Assembly: GCF_013403245.1 (NCBI RefSeq)
Contig: NZ_JACBNQ010000005.1
Coordinates: 1-64,000 of the forward strand
Source of the DNA: Sedimentibacter hydroxybenzoicus DSM 7310
Lineage (GTDB): Bacteria > Bacillota > Clostridia > Tissierellales > Sedimentibacteraceae
Reading direction: 5' to 3'
DNA length: 64,000 bases
Positions 4,817-43,065 of this stretch are shown here, piece by piece (position 1 is the first letter of the stretch; every line of letters begins with the position of its first letter). The notes under the pieces are model-generated. The model was not told the origin of the DNA. It saw only the letters and a list, made by a program, of their open reading frames with translations, and did not search any database. A program made the translations under genes and the position numbers.

Positions 4817-4848
4817 TAAAAGCCCCCGAGGAGGAGGAGGGGCTTTTA
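4817..4848. terminator. Bidirectional terminator between pilT and the transglutaminase gene
   Basis: TAAAAGCCCC and GGGGCTTTTA form a 10-bp stem with flanking A and T runs on both sides. It suits both converging operons. Confidence 0.88.
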
Positions 4849-4851
4849 TTA

Positions 4852-5721
4852 TTAGTACTCAAATTTCTTTGTGTAATATTGTCTATCAATAAGTTTATTT
4901 GTGTGTTCCATTGTTTGCGTGCTGTTTGATTGCTTTGCGCTGGAAGCAATAGTTGAATCCATTAACCTCCACTCCTTACCGTCAAAGTACAATTTATCCA
5001 AGGCTATCCATCCCGTTTCCTCTGTATATACTTCATTCCATGCGTGGAATGCACTTACGTTCTGAGAATATCCTGTTACCAATTTGGTAGGTATTGAATT
5101 TGATCGAAGCATTGCCGCCAACAGTGACGAATAATCATAGCATATGCCCTTATTTTCCTTTAAAATTTCGTCAACATCAGGCAAGTAATCACTTTTTACA
5201 TTTTTAGCTTTATCATTATCATATTTAATATTAGATATTACATAATCATATATCGCTTCTACTTTTTCTAAGTCATTTGTCTTGTTTGCTGCAAGCTCCT
5301 GTGCTTTCTTAACCGTTTCAGATTCTTCAGTATAATTAACCATCTGGCTTGATATTAAATACGGAGCATTTTCATCTTTCAATTTTACATCTATATCTAC
5401 AGTTTGTGTAGTTGCATATCTGTTATCACTGATGTTTTCAAATACTCTAACTTTATATTTTCCATCTCCGAGTTGAAGCGGATATGTATCATATTCACCC
5501 TTATTGTTTAAATTATATGTATATTGAATTGAATTATTTTCTATTATTACCTTTAATTTTTTTGTAGTTTCATTTAAATATCTAACCTTTATATATCCGT
5601 CAACTGCATTTGAAGCGTCTATTTCTGATTTTGAACCCTTATATATGTCCGCACCATAAGCAACAGATGAAAAAGCAAATATTAGTATCAAAGTAAATAG
5701 AGTTATTTTAAATTTTTTCAT
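4852..5721 (-). CDS. Secreted transglutaminase-like (TGc domain) protein
   Basis: A 289-aa protein with a clear signal peptide (cut near ...SVAYGA-DIY, residue 24). The first half (25-125) looks like a beta-sandwich. The second half holds a transglutaminase/protease core: GICYDYSSL carries the nucleophilic Cys, FHAWNEVY the His, and WIALD the likely Asp. Bacterial TGc proteins act as cell-surface cysteine proteases or cross-linkers. A c-di-GMP-I riboswitch with a terminator sits in the 5' UTR, so synthesis should follow the motile-to-sessile switch. A surface or adhesion role is inference. Confidence 0.85.
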   Translation of the reverse strand: MKKFKITLFTLILIFAFSSVAYGADIYKGSKSEIDASNAVDGYIKVRYLNETTKKLKVIIENNSIQYTYNLNNKGEYDTYPLQLGDGKYKVRVFENISDNRYATTQTVDIDVKLKDENAPYLISSQMVNYTEESETVKKAQELAANKTNDLEKVEAIYDYVISNIKYDNDKAKNVKSDYLPDVDEILKENKGICYDYSSLLAAMLRSNSIPTKLVTGYSQNVSAFHAWNEVYTEETGWIALDKLYFDGKEWRLMDSTIASSAKQSNSTQTMEHTNKLIDRQYYTKKFEY

Positions 5722-5743
5722 ATGTTTGCCCCCTACTTTCCAA

Positions 5744-5771
5744 TAAAAAAGCTTTGCAAAAATTGCAAAGC
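5744..5771 (-). terminator. Riboswitch terminator upstream of the transglutaminase gene
   Basis: On the minus strand GCTTTGCAA (5763-5771) and TTGCAAAGC (5751-5759) pair, followed by a run of T (5745-5750). The arm GCTTTGC can also pair with GCAAAGC inside the aptamer (5842-5848), a plausible antiterminator. Confidence 0.85.
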
Positions 5772-5799
5772 ATATAATCCGAATAATGTACCTACGTAC

Positions 5800-5876
5800 A
5801 GCAACTGGCTGTCATACCATTTTCATGGCTTAGACCCTATAGCTTTGCGTCATTTCCTTTAGGAAATTTTGCCTAT
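5800..5876 (-). promoter_or_regulatory. Cyclic di-GMP-I (GEMM-I) riboswitch aptamer
   Basis: Minus-strand sequence shows the conserved GEMM-I blocks in order: AGGAAATGACGCAAAG, GGGTCTAAGCCATG, a tetraloop-type hairpin ATGAAAATGGT, then GACAGCCAGTTGC. The aptamer is directly upstream of an intrinsic terminator and the transglutaminase start. Family knowledge: the fold binds the second messenger c-di-GMP. Confidence 0.9.
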
Positions 5877-6626: not shown

Positions 6627-6685
6627 TTGGTGCGGATGAGAGGAGTCGAACCCCCACGGTATCCCGCTAGATCCTAAGTCTAGTG
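6627..6685 (-). other. attL core: duplicated 3' part of tRNA-Leu
   Basis: 59 bases identical to 43007-43065, covering the tRNA from the anticodon stem-loop through the CCA end (CCA at 6628-6630). Sequence diverges exactly after TAGTG at 6685. This fragment lacks the 5' half and is not a functional tRNA. Confidence 0.95.
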
Positions 6686-6806
6686 ATTTACATATTGCAA
6701 TCATTTTGCTTTCCCTTGATTTTACAAGGCATTGAATTTAATTGTTTTTATTGCTATATGCAACATGTCATTGTATAAATTAACATTGTTATTAGCGTTA
6801 ATTATG

Positions 6807-6830
6807 TTTTGTGCGGTATTTTGTGCGGTA
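6807..6830 (+). repeat. Putative integrase arm-type sites, left arm
   Basis: Two adjacent direct copies of TTTTGTGCGGTA (6807-6818 and 6819-6830). The same TTTTGTGCGGT occurs at 42950-42960, beside the integrase gene and attR. Direct repeats on both arms of attP are typical arm-binding sites of tyrosine integrases with an N-terminal arm-binding domain. Confidence 0.7.
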
Positions 6831-7065
6831 TATGAAACCGTCAAAAGACATCAAGCAACCCGCTTTAAGCACTTTTGATAAATACAAGCATATAATATAA
6901 TTAGAGATGACAACTCTTAAACAGCCACCTCCTACGAACATACTTGAATCGTTATATGAGCTGGCTGGATAGGTAACACAATAACAGGGCAGTAAACGGT
7001 ACCTTTATGGTAGTCCGGCTGCCCTATTATTATAGCTTGTTTAGGTTATATTTAGTGATTATAAC
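6831..7065. other. Prophage left-end noncoding stretch with stem-loop
   Basis: No clear gene. A 21-codon micro-ORF (6907-6972, plus strand, weak RBS) and a stem-loop with arms AGGGCAG (6986-6992) and CTGCCCT (7019-7025) are visible. The stem-loop lies downstream of the HTH gene on the minus strand and may act as its terminator, though the T run is poor. Confidence 0.4.
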
Positions 7066-7245
7066 CTATGCTCGGCATAATTCATCTAAAGTGACATTCA
7101 GAGCATCGGCTAATTTAATAGCCGTAGATACTTTACAATCGTCATTGCGTTCAATGTTTTCAATCGTTCTTATAGGCACTTTTGATTTTCTAAATAGGTC
7201 AGGTACAGTCAGGTCCTGCTGCAACCGTATTTTTCTAAGATTCAT
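7066..7245 (-). CDS. Small XRE-family HTH regulator at the prophage end
   Basis: A 59-aa protein that is essentially one helix-turn-helix domain: MNLRKIRLQQDLTVPDLFRKSKVPIRTIENIERNDD...TAIKLADALNVTLDELC is a textbook XRE/Cro fold. I prefer the ATG at 7245 (AGG eight bases upstream) to the GTG at 7254. It lacks any dimerisation or peptidase domain. It lies downstream of the 7527-7802 gene on the same strand, the position often held by anti-CRISPR-associated (Aca) regulators. That link is inference. A half-site (GTGGTA) of the 7838-7854 operator occurs upstream, on the minus strand at about 7279-7284. Confidence 0.85.
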   Translation of the reverse strand: MNLRKIRLQQDLTVPDLFRKSKVPIRTIENIERNDDCKVSTAIKLADALNVTLDELCRA

Positions 7246-7312
7246 TGCATTCACCTTTTATTTTATATTCGTTTTCGTACCACTATTTTTTAATCCTTAT
7301 TAGATTTTTAAA

Positions 7313-7342
7313 TTACGTTCTATCGTTATTTTTGAGATTCAT
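7313..7342 (-). CDS. Possible micro-ORF with strong RBS
   Basis: AAGGAG (7348-7353) is placed 5 bases before an ATG that opens 9 codons (MNLKNNDRT) and a TAA. Such a strong site before so short a frame is unusual. It lies opposite and upstream of the crRNA-like unit, and its 3' end overlaps the 12-base match to the unit's spacer (7315-7326). It could be a leader peptide for the HTH gene, a CreT-like mini-ORF, or chance. Confidence 0.28.
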   Translation of the reverse strand: MNLKNNDRT

Positions 7343-7363
7343 TTCTTCTCCTTGAAAAAATTC

Positions 7364-7392
7364 TTGACATTAAATAATTTATAATCTAAAAT
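7364..7392 (+). promoter_or_regulatory. Promoter of the CRISPR-like RNA unit
   Basis: TTGACA (7364-7369), 17-bp spacer, TAAAAT (7387-7392). Transcription would start near 7399, just at the first repeat, with no room for a leader or coding region. Confidence 0.8.
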
Positions 7393-7401
7393 AAAACCAT
7401 A

Positions 7402-7501
7402 AGCACATAGATTACCTATAAGGAATTGAAATATGTTCTATCGTGTGTGCTTGATTGTACAAACATGATTAAACTTTAGATTACCTATAAGGAAGCAAGC
7501 T
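7402..7501 (+). CRISPR. Single-spacer CRISPR-like unit (repeat-spacer-repeat), orphan
   Basis: Two copies of TAGATTACCTATAAGGAA (7408-7425 and 7477-7494) are 69 bases apart. The first continues as TTGAAAT, the 3' end typical of clostridial type I-B repeats (ACCTATAAGGAATTGAAAC/T). With a 30-base repeat (7403-7432 and 7472-7501) the spacer is about 39 bases, normal for I-B. CCTATAAGG gives the small stem-loop expected for Cas6 recognition. Repeat 1 diverges only at its 5' end and repeat 2 only at its 3' end, parts absent from a mature crRNA. Own promoter and terminator flank the unit. No cas genes are in the window, so processing would rely on host Cas6. Confidence 0.72.
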
Positions 7502-7521
7502 GGGATAATACCCAGCTTTTT
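7497..7521 (+). terminator. Intrinsic terminator of the CRISPR-like RNA unit
   Basis: AAGCTGGG (7497-7504) and CCCAGCTT (7511-7518) pair and run into TTTTT. It overlaps the end of repeat 2, so the predicted transcript is only about 120 bases. Confidence 0.85.
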
Positions 7522-7526
7522 GCATT

Positions 7527-7802
7527 TTATAATTTCTCAAAATAAGGATTTTCAAAGAAAAATGCATTTCTTGCTTTCAATTTTTTAAGCTTTTCGACAT
7601 GAGATAATGCTATCTCAAGTATTTTTTCTTTTGTATCCCAAGAAACGTCAATATCTTCAGAGTTTGTAGTTTTAAAAAACGTTCCAAACTTGCCATTTTC
7701 ATAAACAACATTTTCACCGCCCGATAATTGCATCAAGTATCTTCCATCCTGCTTTAATTCTACTTTGTCAAATTCGTTTTTAATTATTTGCATCATTTTC
7801 AT
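7527..7802 (-). CDS. 91-aa orphan protein, prophage cargo region
   Basis: No family recognised. The protein is small, soluble, roughly charge-neutral, with a predicted beta-rich first half (YLMQLSGGENVVYENGKFGTFF) and a helical second half (EKILEIALSHVEKLKKLKARN) ending in an aromatic-rich tail. GGAG lies 6-7 bases before the ATG. It has its own perfect-consensus promoter with a palindrome in the spacer, so it is strongly expressed but repressible. It sits between lysis genes and attL, where phages carry accessory genes, beside a CRISPR-like RNA. An anti-CRISPR or superinfection role is only a hypothesis. Confidence 0.8.
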   Translation of the reverse strand: MKMMQIIKNEFDKVELKQDGRYLMQLSGGENVVYENGKFGTFFKTTNSEDIDVSWDTKEKILEIALSHVEKLKKLKARNAFFFENPYFEKL

Positions 7803-7831
7803 TTTTTTCTCCTTTTTTTATTTTATAATTC

Positions 7832-7860
7832 ATTATACCACCTTTTAAGGTGGTTGTCAA
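7832..7860 (-). promoter_or_regulatory. Perfect consensus promoter with palindromic operator in the spacer
   Basis: On the minus strand TTGACA (7855-7860) and TATAAT (7832-7837) are separated by exactly 17 bases (7838-7854). These are filled by the palindrome ACCACCTT-AA-AAGGTGGT, whose last T overlaps the -10 box. A dimeric repressor bound here would block RNA polymerase. Confidence 0.87.
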
Positions 7861-7941
7861 TACTTTTTTATAATTATTTTAAAATATTTTTTGTTGAAAT
7901 TTAAACACTTATAGGCATTGCAAGAAAAAAGTTCAAAAAAT

Positions 7942-7970
7942 AAAAAAATCCCGGGCATTACACCCGGGAA
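7942..7970 (-). terminator. Terminator of the late/lysis operon
   Basis: Minus strand TCCCGGG (7963-7969) and CCCGGGA (7949-7955) form a GC-rich stem followed by seven T. It lies 77 bases after the endolysin stop. Confidence 0.88.
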
Positions 7971-8046
7971 GTGCTAAGTTGCTATGTCAACAAAATTAAC
8001 CATGTCATATCCTTATTGTATGCTTGTACGATAAATGTGTTACAAA

Positions 8047-8646
8047 TTACTTCATAGCTGCAGCTAACTTCAATAAAAGCGGTTCACTATACTTGTAGAA
8101 AAGCAGATATTGTATAGTATTTTCATCAATGCCTGTCTTTTCTTGTATTATATTTATAGCTTCTTGTACTGTCATTTCCTTTACAAAATAACCTGCAGGA
8201 TTCACGCACATTATATATTGACCTGCATAAGTGCCTTTAGTCCAGAAATGCGGATGACTATACAAGCAATTTCTAACTTCGAAGTGCAGATGTGCTGCTG
8301 TGCTTGTCCCCGTATTGCCCATGTGAGCAACGATATCGCCCGCCTTGACTGTTTGTCCTACCTTCAATTCCAAACTTGCCAGATGGGCGTATAATGTGCA
8401 GTATCCCTCATGTTCTATAACTATGTAATATCCATATCCGACATTCTTATTTCCGCTATCTGCCTTACTTACCTTTACAATACCATCATCCACGGCATAT
8501 AAAGCATCTCCCTCAACTCCGGGAGTTATTGCTCCAAAATCTATACCCGAATGAAATTGAAGTCCGGCAAAATCTCTCTTGCCGAACTCTGATGTGATTC
8601 TTTGATTTTTGGTTGGATTATGTTTAAACTTTATCACCGTCACCAC
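8047..8646 (-). CDS. Phage endolysin, M23 metallopeptidase
   Basis: LytM-type M23 fold. HSGIDFG supplies the first zinc ligands (His, Asp), and AHLHFEVRN supplies the HxH pair. A C-terminal tail of about 50 residues (VQEAINIIQEKTGIDENTIQ...) does not match a wall-binding domain I know. M23 enzymes cut peptide cross-bridges in peptidoglycan. The protein starts with GTG inside the end of the holin gene (23-base overlap) and lacks a signal peptide, fitting holin-dependent release. The start codon is uncertain because three GTG codons lie close together. Confidence 0.88.
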   Translation of the reverse strand: MVTVIKFKHNPTKNQRITSEFGKRDFAGLQFHSGIDFGAITPGVEGDALYAVDDGIVKVSKADSGNKNVGYGYYIVIEHEGYCTLYAHLASLELKVGQTVKAGDIVAHMGNTGTSTAAHLHFEVRNCLYSHPHFWTKGTYAGQYIMCVNPAGYFVKEMTVQEAINIIQEKTGIDENTIQYLLFYKYSEPLLLKLAAAMK

Positions 8647-9118
8647 CGCCTACAATTGCATCTCCTGCATTGTCAATTTTATCCTTAGCTATACCCAGAA
8701 CTTTAATCAAGAATGTAGGAAGTTCTATTCCTGCGTGTTGCAAGTTTTCAGCATTAGATATAATTTCTCTTACAAGTATATATGCCATAACGAGAGCCGT
8801 TACTAATATTTTAGCTACTATGTTAATCCCTAATACAGAAGCTAATATTAATAGTGCTTTATCTACCATTAAAGCAAGCATAATCAATAAACACAAACCA
8901 ACTTTTTTATATAAACCTTTCATAACTTTTTTGCTTTCTGGACGTTCATCAGGACGAACACACGCAGCATATATTCTTGTTATTAGGTCTGCGAACATTG
9001 CAATTAGTGTTATTATTAAAAGAGGTGTAAGAGCTCCGAATATATTTGCTAAAAAAGCATATATAATAGCTATTACACCTACTATTGATATTTTAATCTC
9101 ATTAAATTTCTCTCCCAT
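8624..9118 (-). CDS. Phage holin (TcdE/holin 4 family-like)
   Basis: 164 residues with hydrophobic segments at about 11-30, 31-45, 78-95 and 98-117, a charged loop and a charged C-terminus. It matches the Bhl/TcdE-like holin family, which makes membrane lesions that release the endolysin. The start overlaps the preceding stop by 1 base and the end overlaps the endolysin gene, a classic lysis cassette. Confidence 0.85.
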   Translation of the reverse strand: MGEKFNEIKISIVGVIAIIYAFLANIFGALTPLLIITLIAMFADLITRIYAACVRPDERPESKKVMKGLYKKVGLCLLIMLALMVDKALLILASVLGINIVAKILVTALVMAYILVREIISNAENLQHAGIELPTFLIKVLGIAKDKIDNAGDAIVGGGDGDKV

Positions 9119-10101
9119 TATACTCTCCCTTCAATCTCTTGCATAATTTTTTCATAAATTCGTCTTGTTGTTGCAGCTTCTTCTGCTCTTGTAACAGGCT
9201 TTTGCGGTTCAAATGTATCATCTCCGTCCCCTTGCATCAAGCCATTTTCTACACAAAATTTAACATCATCATAGAACCAATCTGATTCATTTACATCAGT
9301 AAAATTTAATGTAGCGGGTTTATCTGGCATGGTATCAGTTCCTCCTTTCCTTAGAGTTTCTAAAATCTCTAATTTCTCCGTTAATGGCAGCACGGGTATT
9401 CCCCAACCTGTACGCTCGTCCCATCCATCAACATCCATATTATAAGTTATAGATTTGAATACTTCTCTCAACTCGGCTTGATTCATATCACCGTATCTTT
9501 GACAAAGCAATATAGAAAGACTTAAGAGTGCTGGAGATGCTGAACTTGTGCCATTGCCTGTACCCATAGTGCACATAAAATCTAATTCTTCTCCAATACC
9601 ACTATAATATACGCGTGATACTTTCCCCTTTTCGTCTATAACAGCTGCACCAACAGCTATTGCTGTATCATACCTATTCCAATCTTTGCGTACACTTTCT
9701 GCATCATTCCCAGCAGCCGAAAAAAAGAACACTCCATAACGTTCTTGCAATTCTTTGTAGTAGTCCATAGTTGTCTTGTCAAATGATGCAGAGTGTGAAG
9801 ACGTAAAGGCTTTAATATTAAGCCTTGTAATAGCTTCCTCCAGTGGTATGTACTCTCCTTGATAATTTATATGTCTATTTCTGCCAGAGCCGCCAATAAT
9901 ACTATTTATAACTCTACACTCAGGAATAAAATCATTTATCACTCCTGTTGTCATCGCTCCATGGTCATCCTTGCCAGGATAGTTTTCCGCGTTTACGACT
10001 GTGAAGCCTTGTCCCTTATACCCAAGCTCATGGTACTTGTCCACATTTAAAAATGCAAACTGTCGAGACAATATCATTTTGTTGTATTCTTTAGCATCCA
10101 T
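9118..10101 (-). CDS. Subtilase (S8)-like protein with C-terminal SLH domain
   Basis: 327 residues. Subtilase hallmarks are His47 (DDHGAMTTGV), oxyanion Asn132 (FFFSAAGND) and Ser186 in GTSSASP. The usual catalytic Asp (V-I-D-T-G) reads VVNAEN, so Asn37 replaces it, and the Asp-His spacing is only about 10 residues instead of about 30. After a linker, residues 267-320 form one S-layer homology domain (FTDVNESDWFYDDVKFCVENGLMQGDG). There is no signal peptide. It lies between tail genes and the holin. It may be a virion or lysis-released protein acting on the host S-layer, or a degenerate non-proteolytic fold. Confidence 0.85.
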   Translation of the reverse strand: MDAKEYNKMILSRQFAFLNVDKYHELGYKGQGFTVVNAENYPGKDDHGAMTTGVINDFIPECRVINSIIGGSGRNRHINYQGEYIPLEEAITRLNIKAFTSSHSASFDKTTMDYYKELQERYGVFFFSAAGNDAESVRKDWNRYDTAIAVGAAVIDEKGKVSRVYYSGIGEELDFMCTMGTGNGTSSASPALLSLSILLCQRYGDMNQAELREVFKSITYNMDVDGWDERTGWGIPVLPLTEKLEILETLRKGGTDTMPDKPATLNFTDVNESDWFYDDVKFCVENGLMQGDGDDTFEPQKPVTRAEEAATTRRIYEKIMQEIEGRV

Positions 10102-36727: not shown

Positions 36728-36953
36728 AGTATTTGCCTATCCTTTCTTCTTTTTCGCTTTTCTCACGTTCTAAATACCTTTGGTGTATTTCTAATTCCTC
36801 GATGGAATATTTAATTATCTCTTCAAAGCTATCATTTACAATGTCTTGTAGTCTGAATATAGCTGTCTGAACATTATTAATATCCTCTTCTAGTTGGTCT
36901 CTTTCTTCTTCTAAATCATCAATGTTTATTGATATAAACTCGTTGTATGTCAT
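36711..36953 (-). CDS. Coiled-coil phage protein (80 aa)
   Basis: Strongly helical and acidic: INIDDLEEERDQLEEDINNVQTAIFRLQDIV. Short proteins of this sort precede ERF or RecT genes and may be structural or regulatory partners. No family recognised. ATGA overlap with the upstream gene. Confidence 0.68.
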   Translation of the reverse strand: MTYNEFISINIDDLEEERDQLEEDINNVQTAIFRLQDIVNDSFEEIIKYSIEELEIHQRYLEREKSEKEERIGKYYEHLQ

Positions 36954-37837
36954 TGTTCATCACACGCCACAAACTTATTATTTTTCAACATGTAGAATGT
37001 GTTTTCTTTTATCTTCTTGCCGTCTATTCTTTTGGTCTGAACATTAACACGATGCCATTTTCCATGCTCGTCCTGTTCCCACTCAGCTAAGGTTAACCAG
37101 CAACCTTTTGCGCCCTTTGCCTTACCCTTTCTTCCAAGTGCAATAGCACAACCTTCAGCTAATTTCTTACCTTCTTTGATTTCCGCACTTCCACAATCCC
37201 CGATGGCGGTTGCTACAGCCCAATCACCCTCGGCTTGTGCTCCTGCTCGGTATCCTGTGGCTTGTGCTCCTGCTCGGTCTCCTGTGGCTTGTGCTCCTGC
37301 TTGGTATCCTGTGGCTTGTGCTCCTGCTTGGTATCCTGTGGCTTGTGCTCCTGCTCGGTCTCCTGTGGCTTGTGCTCCTGCTTGGTATCCTGTGGCTTGT
37401 GCTCCTGCTTGGTATCCTGTGGCTTGTGCTCCTGCTTGGTCTCCTGTGGCTTGTGCTCCTGCTTGGTATCCTGTGGCTTGTGCTCCTGCTCGGTCTCCTG
37501 TGGTGCTATTTTCTTTTTTCCAATCCACTCTATCTAAAATAAACTTTACGCCAGCTTCTATGATTCCTTTTAAGCCTATCTCTACGCCTACACGAATTTT
37601 AGATACCGCTACCTTGCTATCTCTGCCATCCCTATCAACATCTCCATCTCCTTCAACTTCGCAATATCTACTGTCCGATGGAGGATAATATTCAAACACA
37701 TTTAGAGGATCTTCGCAAAAGTGGAATCCTTTGCTACAAGCTTTTATATTTCCTTCTTGTTCGTATTCCTTGCCTACTTCGTACTTAAAGCCTCTGCATT
37801 TTAAATCTTTATCGAACCCCTTATATCCTTTTATCAT
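36950..37837 (-). CDS. DUF7666-like phage protein with ten 9-residue repeats
   Basis: 295 residues. The N-terminus (YKGFDKDLKCRGFKYEVGKEYEQEG...ACSKGFHFCEDPLNVFEYYPP) resembles the DUF7666 phage family. Residues about 114-203 are ten copies of AGAQATG(Y/D)(Q/R), followed by a decayed set (AGAQAEGDWAVATAIG) and a globular tail (KKLAEGCAIALGRKGKAKGAKGCWLTLAEWE). Such Gly/Ala repeats probably form a beta-roll or helix. The role is unknown. Located in the early region, so not a tail fibre. Confidence 0.75.
   Translation of the reverse strand: MIKGYKGFDKDLKCRGFKYEVGKEYEQEGNIKACSKGFHFCEDPLNVFEYYPPSDSRYCEVEGDGDVDRDGRDSKVAVSKIRVGVEIGLKGIIEAGVKFILDRVDWKKENSTTGDRAGAQATGYQAGAQATGDQAGAQATGYQAGAQATGYQAGAQATGDRAGAQATGYQAGAQATGYQAGAQATGDRAGAQATGYRAGAQAEGDWAVATAIGDCGSAEIKEGKKLAEGCAIALGRKGKAKGAKGCWLTLAEWEQDEHGKWHRVNVQTKRIDGKKIKENTFYMLKNNKFVACDEQ
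37228..37497. repeat. Ten 27-bp tandem repeats
   Basis: Units CTCCTGCTCGGTATCCTG + TGGCTTGTG (27 bp) differ only in a few bases that switch Y/D and Q/R in the protein. Because 27 is a multiple of 3, the opposite strand also stays open in three frames, creating false ORFs. Confidence 0.97.
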
Positions 37838-38721: not shown

Positions 38722-39279
38722 TTATTTTTCCCCCTCTACTATCCAAACATCCGCCATATGCCGCCCTGCTTCTAATGCTGCCTCATGGCTATCCATATAC
38801 ACATCAAGTCTATTTCCTTTTATAGCTCCGCCTTTGTCTTCCACGACCCGGTAACCAATCCCATCTATGTATATCTGCGTGCCTACCTTAAATACATCCC
38901 AATCAGCAGCGATAGTTTGTCCCTCTGTCGCAAGTGTACCGGATGCCGTTATACCGTAGTAGGGATCTCCGGGATATTTGCCTGTTGATTCGGGTCCGGC
39001 GGTGTAATATGTTACTTCAAATTCGCCTACATACTTCATTTTCAATTCTTCTTGTGTCAGATCTTCCTCTACTTCCATATGTAAAAACGCAATCTCTAAC
39101 ATTTCTATGTACTCCTGCTTGTCCTTTAATCGTGCAGCTTGTCTACTGTTTTGGTACTGTAGTTCTGCGATATCTGTCTGCATTGCCTTTGCATCTAATC
39201 CGGTTATTACGAGAGCTACAAGACAGATGATAAGACATATAAGGAATATTGTTCTTTCGAGTTTTAGTTTTTTAATCAA
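38722..39279 (-). CDS. Membrane-anchored 3D-domain protein
   Basis: 185 residues: one transmembrane helix (12-30), a coiled coil (35-75) and a C-terminal 3D domain (VTYYTAGPEST...YGITASGTLATEGQTIAAD...VGTQIYIDGIGYRVVEDKGGAIKGNRLDVYM) with the three conserved Asp. 3D domains occur in RpfB/YabE-like cell-wall lytic proteins. In a prophage early region it may modify the host wall or exclude other phages. That is inference. Confidence 0.83.
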   Translation of the reverse strand: MIKKLKLERTIFLICLIICLVALVITGLDAKAMQTDIAELQYQNSRQAARLKDKQEYIEMLEIAFLHMEVEEDLTQEELKMKYVGEFEVTYYTAGPESTGKYPGDPYYGITASGTLATEGQTIAADWDVFKVGTQIYIDGIGYRVVEDKGGAIKGNRLDVYMDSHEAALEAGRHMADVWIVEGEK

Positions 39280-43006: not shown

Positions 43007-43065
43007 TTGGTGCGGATGAGAGGAGTCGAACCCCCACGGTATCCCGCTAGATCCTAAGTCTAGTG
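43007..43065 (-). other. attR core within tRNA-Leu
   Basis: 59-bp copy identical to 6627-6685. It supplies the 3' part of the intact tRNA. Divergence begins after TAGTG at 43065, inside the anticodon stem region. Confidence 0.95.

Follow-up and report, generated by a model that had tools for sequence, protein, structure and literature searches.

The DNA analysed here, called the window throughout, is a 64,000-nucleotide stretch of Sedimentibacter hydroxybenzoicus DSM 7310 containing a prophage of about 36.4 kb, which is flanked by 59-bp tRNA-Leu repeat copies at 6627-6685 and 43007-43065. At the lysis/attachment end of this prophage, with the integrase and a CI-like repressor located at the opposite end, the holin and endolysin genes immediately precede a small cassette that includes an orphan 91-aa gene, a convergent crRNA-like RNA and a gene for a small HTH protein (Table 1), the last lying downstream of the 91-aa gene and on the same strand, as originally predicted. 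An IMG/VR relative of the prophage (L099), with an endolysin 89% identical, matches it up to 7937 and has different genes beyond that point, suggesting that 6686-7936 is an exchangeable accessory slot. In this relative, the post-endolysin slot (4823-5850) encodes 72-aa, 134-aa and 71-aa genes, and the 71-aa gene is unlike the 91-aa protein. The lysis region of the prophage also encodes, directly ahead of the holin, a protein that joins a subtilase-like protease to an S-layer homology repeat (9118-10101).

Table 1. Features of the cassette and its borders, in window coordinates
Feature	Position	Strand	Basis or remarks
Attachment-site copy (tRNA-Leu 3' remnant)	6627..6685	.	59 bp identical to 43007-43065
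59-aa Cro/CI-type HTH repressor (Aca-like regulator), last cassette gene	7066..7245	-	HTH_3, E=1e-8
9-codon mini-ORF with RBS, between RNA gene and HTH gene	7313..7342	-	5' end resembles HTH start
Possible second guide target, 5' of HTH gene	7315..7326	+	11/12; mismatch at position 2, without TTA PAM
RNA promoter TTGACA-17-TAAAAT, convergent to 91-aa gene	7364..7392	+	11/12 match
crRNA-like RNA	~7399..7525	+	Promoter, repeats, guide, terminator
First repeat	7403-7432	+	26/30 to host array repeat; 5' handle ATTGAAAT
Guide, 5' part ATGTTCTATCGTGTGTG	7433..7449	+	15/17 identical to host CreR-like guide ATGTTATATTGTGTGTG
Second, truncated repeat	7477-7494	+	Ends before Cas6 handle
Terminator and T-run	7497-7518	+	
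Orphan 91-aa cargo protein, 10.8 kDa, pI 6.6	7527..7802	-	Codon usage; no homologue
Consensus sigma-70 promoter TTGACA-17-TATAAT of 91-aa gene	7832..7860	-	12/12 match
Operator, perfect 18-bp palindrome ACCACCTTAAAAGGTGGT in spacer	7837..7854	.	Same operator/class 5' of 35/41 homologous HTH genes
Endolysin and terminator	7937..8646	-	Homology with IMG/VR relative runs to 7937, then ends

The original prediction of an exact consensus promoter for the 91-aa gene, with a palindrome occupying the 17-nt spacer and one base of the -10, is confirmed in both respects. The promoter at 7832-7860 is the sole zero-mismatch TTGACA-N17-TATAAT in the 64-kb window, for which about 0.05 would be expected with independent and identically distributed bases. 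The palindrome, with arms ACCACCTT-AA-AAGGTGGT, pairs without mismatch, the probability that eight pairs all form by chance at a given place being about 3e-5. At up to three mismatches, one other site is found in the window versus 0.12 expected, and at up to two mismatches the 3.8-Mb genome has a single other site, which carries one mismatch, sits directly 3' of a gene with TTTTTT after it, resembling a terminator. A CI operator as the source of the palindrome was rejected, since the CI/Cro region of the prophage bears TGTTNCATTTTGNAACA-like sites.

The 59-aa HTH protein gives only generic HTH matches in profile libraries that hold no Aca profiles; its relatives include proteins of a sister species (69% identical) and of the human gut phage MT835475.1 (74%). 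This unrelated gut phage has TTGACAACCACCTTTTAAGGTGGTATAAT 356 bp upstream of its HTH gene, so that promoter and operator are the same except for two central bases, and the sister species has TTGACAAGCACGTATATACGTGCTATAAT at the same place, with a different palindrome. A profile search of IMG/VR for the HTH family, carried out at the protein level only, added 53 further loci. Among the 41 distinct HTH proteins used for operator counts, 35 are preceded at 210-880 bp by a near-consensus promoter whose spacer holds a palindrome, compared to 1/41 and 1/41 in the controls. Moreover, the operator tracks two residues of the recognition helix, with EN going with ACCACC (9/9), ED with nCCACG (10/11) and QD with nGCACG (14/15), counts that kinship among the proteins could inflate; closely similar HTH proteins with Q or E (L141, L144) have operators that differ in the expected base only. 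The upstream promoter-palindrome and the residue/base covariation strongly support the link between HTH protein and operator, that is, that the 59-aa protein reads the spacer palindrome, and, judged from these sequence comparisons, it very probably represses the 7832-7860 promoter. Thus, the homologues, the covariation and the gut-phage match all favor the proposal that a strong promoter is shut off by a dimeric HTH repressor.

The 91-aa ORF has a good RBS (AAAGGAG, 6 nt 5' of the ATG) and is the only frame at its locus that matches prophage codon usage. Its status as an orphan is borne out, as searches of Pfam, PHROGs, NCBIfam, PADLOC, PDB, phages, plasmids, IMG/VR, an 84,980-species collection and the full sequences of about 590 genomes returned no homologue, only weak matches at chance level that lay mostly in longer unrelated frames. 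Compared with the host Cas proteins, in view of the Cas-derived AcrIB3/IB4, the protein has no similarity to them. Structure prediction, proposed originally as a check, was run and returned a single-sequence AlphaFold model (mean pLDDT 47.8) too poor for a fold search; the four strands and one helix that it suggests have low confidence. No hydrophobic segment is evident in the sequence, and with a pI of 6.6 the protein is not a membrane peptide.

Mapping the cargo of the HTH family, we found that the usual layout consists of a promoter-operator, a basic 28-45-aa peptide with one membrane segment, a hairpin, often an antisense promoter, and then the HTH gene. These loci (L105-L157 and L104) represent an undescribed phage cassette family, often with a second small peptide before the HTH gene, and no Pfam or NCBIfam family was found for the membrane peptides tested. 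Larger cargo proteins replace the membrane peptide in the window, the sister species and L105, suggesting a regulatory shell whose cargo can be exchanged. In the sister species, the same cassette also follows the endolysin (L103, G014:C22, 2317-3136), and its cargo gene, which belongs to no Pfam family, is apparently split by a frameshift into a 91-aa ORF and a second frame. Since the usual cargo is a membrane peptide, the architecture alone is not diagnostic of an acr gene. The original argument from an acr-then-aca architecture therefore loses the architecture as a marker and keeps its CRISPR link, which comes from the neighboring RNA.

Type I toxin-antitoxin cassettes of Firmicutes prophages have a small gene with a convergent RNA at its 3' end, an arrangement shared by the usual form of the HTH family. 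The locus could accordingly be a cassette of the type I-like toxin-antitoxin or membrane-peptide kind whose cargo has been swapped, in which the 91-aa protein would be a toxin or exclusion protein with a target other than CRISPR, the RNA would be an antisense regulator and the HTH protein would tune transcription. The canonical membrane-peptide layout argues for this, as do antisense promoters at up to two mismatches in 11 of 31 family loci (0.4 expected) and the same antisense position of the RNA in the window. We nevertheless regard this alternative as unlikely: unlike those cassettes, the window has a soluble orphan instead of a membrane peptide as cargo and an added HTH autorepressor, and its RNA alone in the family is crRNA-like, with an 18-nt direct repeat found in no other HTH-family cassette, and copies the guide of a host CreR.

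The CRISPR-like RNA mentioned in the original prediction is real and more informative than the 91-aa gene. Its two repeat-like units lie 69 nt apart. An Rfam search gave no match above threshold. The RNA gene lies between the 91-aa and HTH genes, which share the minus strand; no minus-strand promoter was found in the stretch that separates the RNA gene from the HTH gene, and a T-run follows the hairpin at 7497-7518 on the plus strand only, making read-through from the 91-aa gene to the HTH gene plausible, although the terminator between the two genes might still stop minus-strand transcription.

The host has a complete type I-B locus, cas6-8b-7-5-3-4-1-2, with 27 repeats (contig C40). Upstream of cas6, divergent and on the opposite strand, lies a unit for a CreR-like crRNA (L033, G000:C40, 300-612), itself a predicted RNA. 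The guide of this unit has an 11-nt match to the cas6 promoter behind TTTTA, the best site in 75 kb, which was equalled by 4 of 20000 shuffled guides; under a strict test, 30 loci of divergent relatives gave no such guide-promoter pair upstream of cas6. The agreement of the prophage guide with the host CreR-like guide has a chance of about 2.5e-7, and the best array spacer agrees at 7/17 positions. Handle and guide together were found nowhere else in 199 related genomes, the 84,980-species collection and IMG/VR. Moreover, the prophage RNA and the host CreR-like RNA have ACCTATAAGG in common, where the array has ACCTATGAGG, and beyond position 11 both are offset from the promoter by the same 2 nt, suggesting that derivation of the prophage RNA by copying a CreR is likelier than an independent origin. 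The CRISPR link proposed for the locus is thus supported by an RNA that appears to copy the CreR-like RNA of a host with a complete I-B system.

At the cas6 site, positions 1-5, 7-9 and 11 of the prophage guide are matched and positions 6 and 10 are not; the seed match (1-5, 7-9) was reached by 17 of 20000 shuffles. Type I effectors generally do not read position 6. Position 10 is read, and the mismatch there counts against targeting of the cas6 site. The truncation of the second repeat ahead of the Cas6 handle likewise speaks against the counter-defense reading given below. The prophage RNA probably acts either as a CreR mimic or as a Cascade decoy. A pure decoy would merely sequester Cas6/Cas7, as Racrs do (PMC10651486), and its CreR-like guide would be a relic of origin without targeting, consistent with a repeat part that is 26/30 array-like and a guide that is imperfect at the cas6 site. 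However, a decoy needs no guide, and the one found here is still 15/17 CreR-identical and keeps the cas6-site seed and PAM, so that we consider the pure decoy rather improbable.

A second possible target of the guide lies within the cassette itself. The 11/12 match at 7315-7326, which falls within the HTH gene leader, was reached by 5 of 5000 shuffles, includes both guide bases that differ from the host CreR and is overlapped by the mini-ORF with its RBS. These features would fit an addiction or self-regulation system like CreTA/CrePA, in which RNA-loaded Cascade would repress the HTH or 91-aa gene and loss of Cascade would alter the output of the cassette. Such modules (PMC8501985, PMC9458426) likewise have a crRNA-like RNA, two degenerate repeats and adjoining small genes. 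Unlike in these modules, however, the guide in the window has no good match to the promoter of a protein gene (7/12 at best in the 91-aa promoter region), so that the CrePA rule of a guide directed to the toxin promoter fails, and no rare-codon mini-ORF of the known kind was found. Together with a seed mismatch at position 2 and the flank ATT in place of TTA, this makes such a system very unlikely. The guide may act at 7315-7326 by direct RNA pairing or weak regulation; the seed mismatch and the flank speak against Cascade binding.

Spacer 24 of the host array agrees at 34/37 positions with an IMG/VR relative that shares 84% identity with the prophage across 1.07 kb, the flank there being TTA, suggesting that the host has a memory of this phage group. 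TTA is therefore a likely PAM of the host I-B system, a single protospacer being thin evidence; in the I-B system of P. thermoglucosidasius, TTA is the PAM for both cleavage and repression (PMC10551041). Spacer 13, which matches livM of relatives with the flanks TCA, TTA and TTA, adds little on the PAM and has no target in its own genome at up to three mismatches. The spacer 24 target gene is located at 4945-5475 of L098, with a diverged counterpart at 38722-39279 of the window. The prophage's own version of the target matches at 26/34 with the flank TGA, and self-targeting of the prophage by the host array was rejected, this being the best spacer match.

The best explanation of the locus as a whole, to which we give a probability of about one half, is that the lysis/attachment end of the prophage carries, at 6686-7936, an accessory (moron) cassette for counter-defense, autorepressed by its HTH protein, in which an orphan protein is paired with a phage-encoded mimic of a host cas-repressing RNA. 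The promoter, the operator, the HTH-operator pairing across the family, the copied CreR guide, the intact I-B system and the array memory are the parts of this reading drawn from sequence comparison. In the proposed mechanism, the near-maximal promoter would drive the 91-aa gene, and read-through would probably carry transcription into the HTH gene. On entry the promoter would fire, the 91-aa protein would be made and HTH protein would accumulate until its dimers occupy the palindrome between -35 and -10 and silence the promoter, giving a burst at infection and a quiet lysogen. The prophage RNA, with its own promoter, could persist in the lysogen and keep cas expression low: host Cas6 and Cascade would presumably process and accept it, and the loaded RNA would occupy Cascade and also guide it onto the cas6 promoter, beside the PAM TTA, so that cas expression would fall. 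A read-through minus-strand transcript would be antisense to this RNA, so that the protein and RNA phases would alternate.

The cargo protein would most likely be a counter-defense protein against the same host immunity. In another survey, racr candidates occur near acr genes above chance (PMC10651486), which makes an Acr the best single guess for the 91-aa protein, a tentative one, its function being assigned by guilt by association only. The 91-aa protein and the RNA are a good candidate for a two-part anti-CRISPR weapon. The fuller scenario, that a temperate phage stole the host CreR to switch off CRISPR transcription and paired it with an orphan Acr under an undescribed HTH family with a two-residue-readable operator, is possible but less probable than the cassette reading itself.

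Compared to known systems, the cassette resembles acr-aca operons with Aca repressors (PMC9410906) in having a small phage gene, an HTH gene 3' of it and a consensus core promoter that contains a single inverted repeat, here a palindrome between -35 and -10 to which, given the covariation in the family, HTH binding is predicted. It differs from them by the usual pairing of its HTH family with a membrane peptide, by a convergent RNA gene between the two genes and by the lack of a known Acr. Like a Racr (PMC10651486), the prophage RNA mimics the host CRISPR repeat, has its own promoter and lies beside a candidate acr gene in a host with the matching I-B subtype. Racrs are solitary repeat units, however, whereas this RNA has a second partial repeat and a conserved guide that copies the host CreR. 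Similarly, CreR RNAs (reviewed in PMC12737573 and PMC13131331) are crRNA-like, with degenerate repeats and a guide of limited complementarity to a cas promoter beside a PAM, as found both in the host (11 nt, TTTTA) and, for seed positions 1-5 and 7-9, in the prophage. In contrast to CreR, the prophage RNA is encoded outside the CRISPR-cas locus, and the host has a separate CreR-like copy beside cas6.

Phages are known to counter CRISPR by Acr proteins and Racr decoy repeats, and hosts to dampen their cas genes via CreR. A phage copy of CreR, for which no reported case was found in the part of the literature covered, would, if true, unite both by turning the host's own brake on the host. The two-residue operator code of the HTH family offers a handle for finding phage cargo genes, including candidate anti-defense genes. 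Elsewhere in the prophage, a protein rich in GAQATGYQA repeats is encoded at 36950-37837, and in the IMG/VR relative L098 an analogous protein with NSGNRNTGN repeats is encoded at a similar place.
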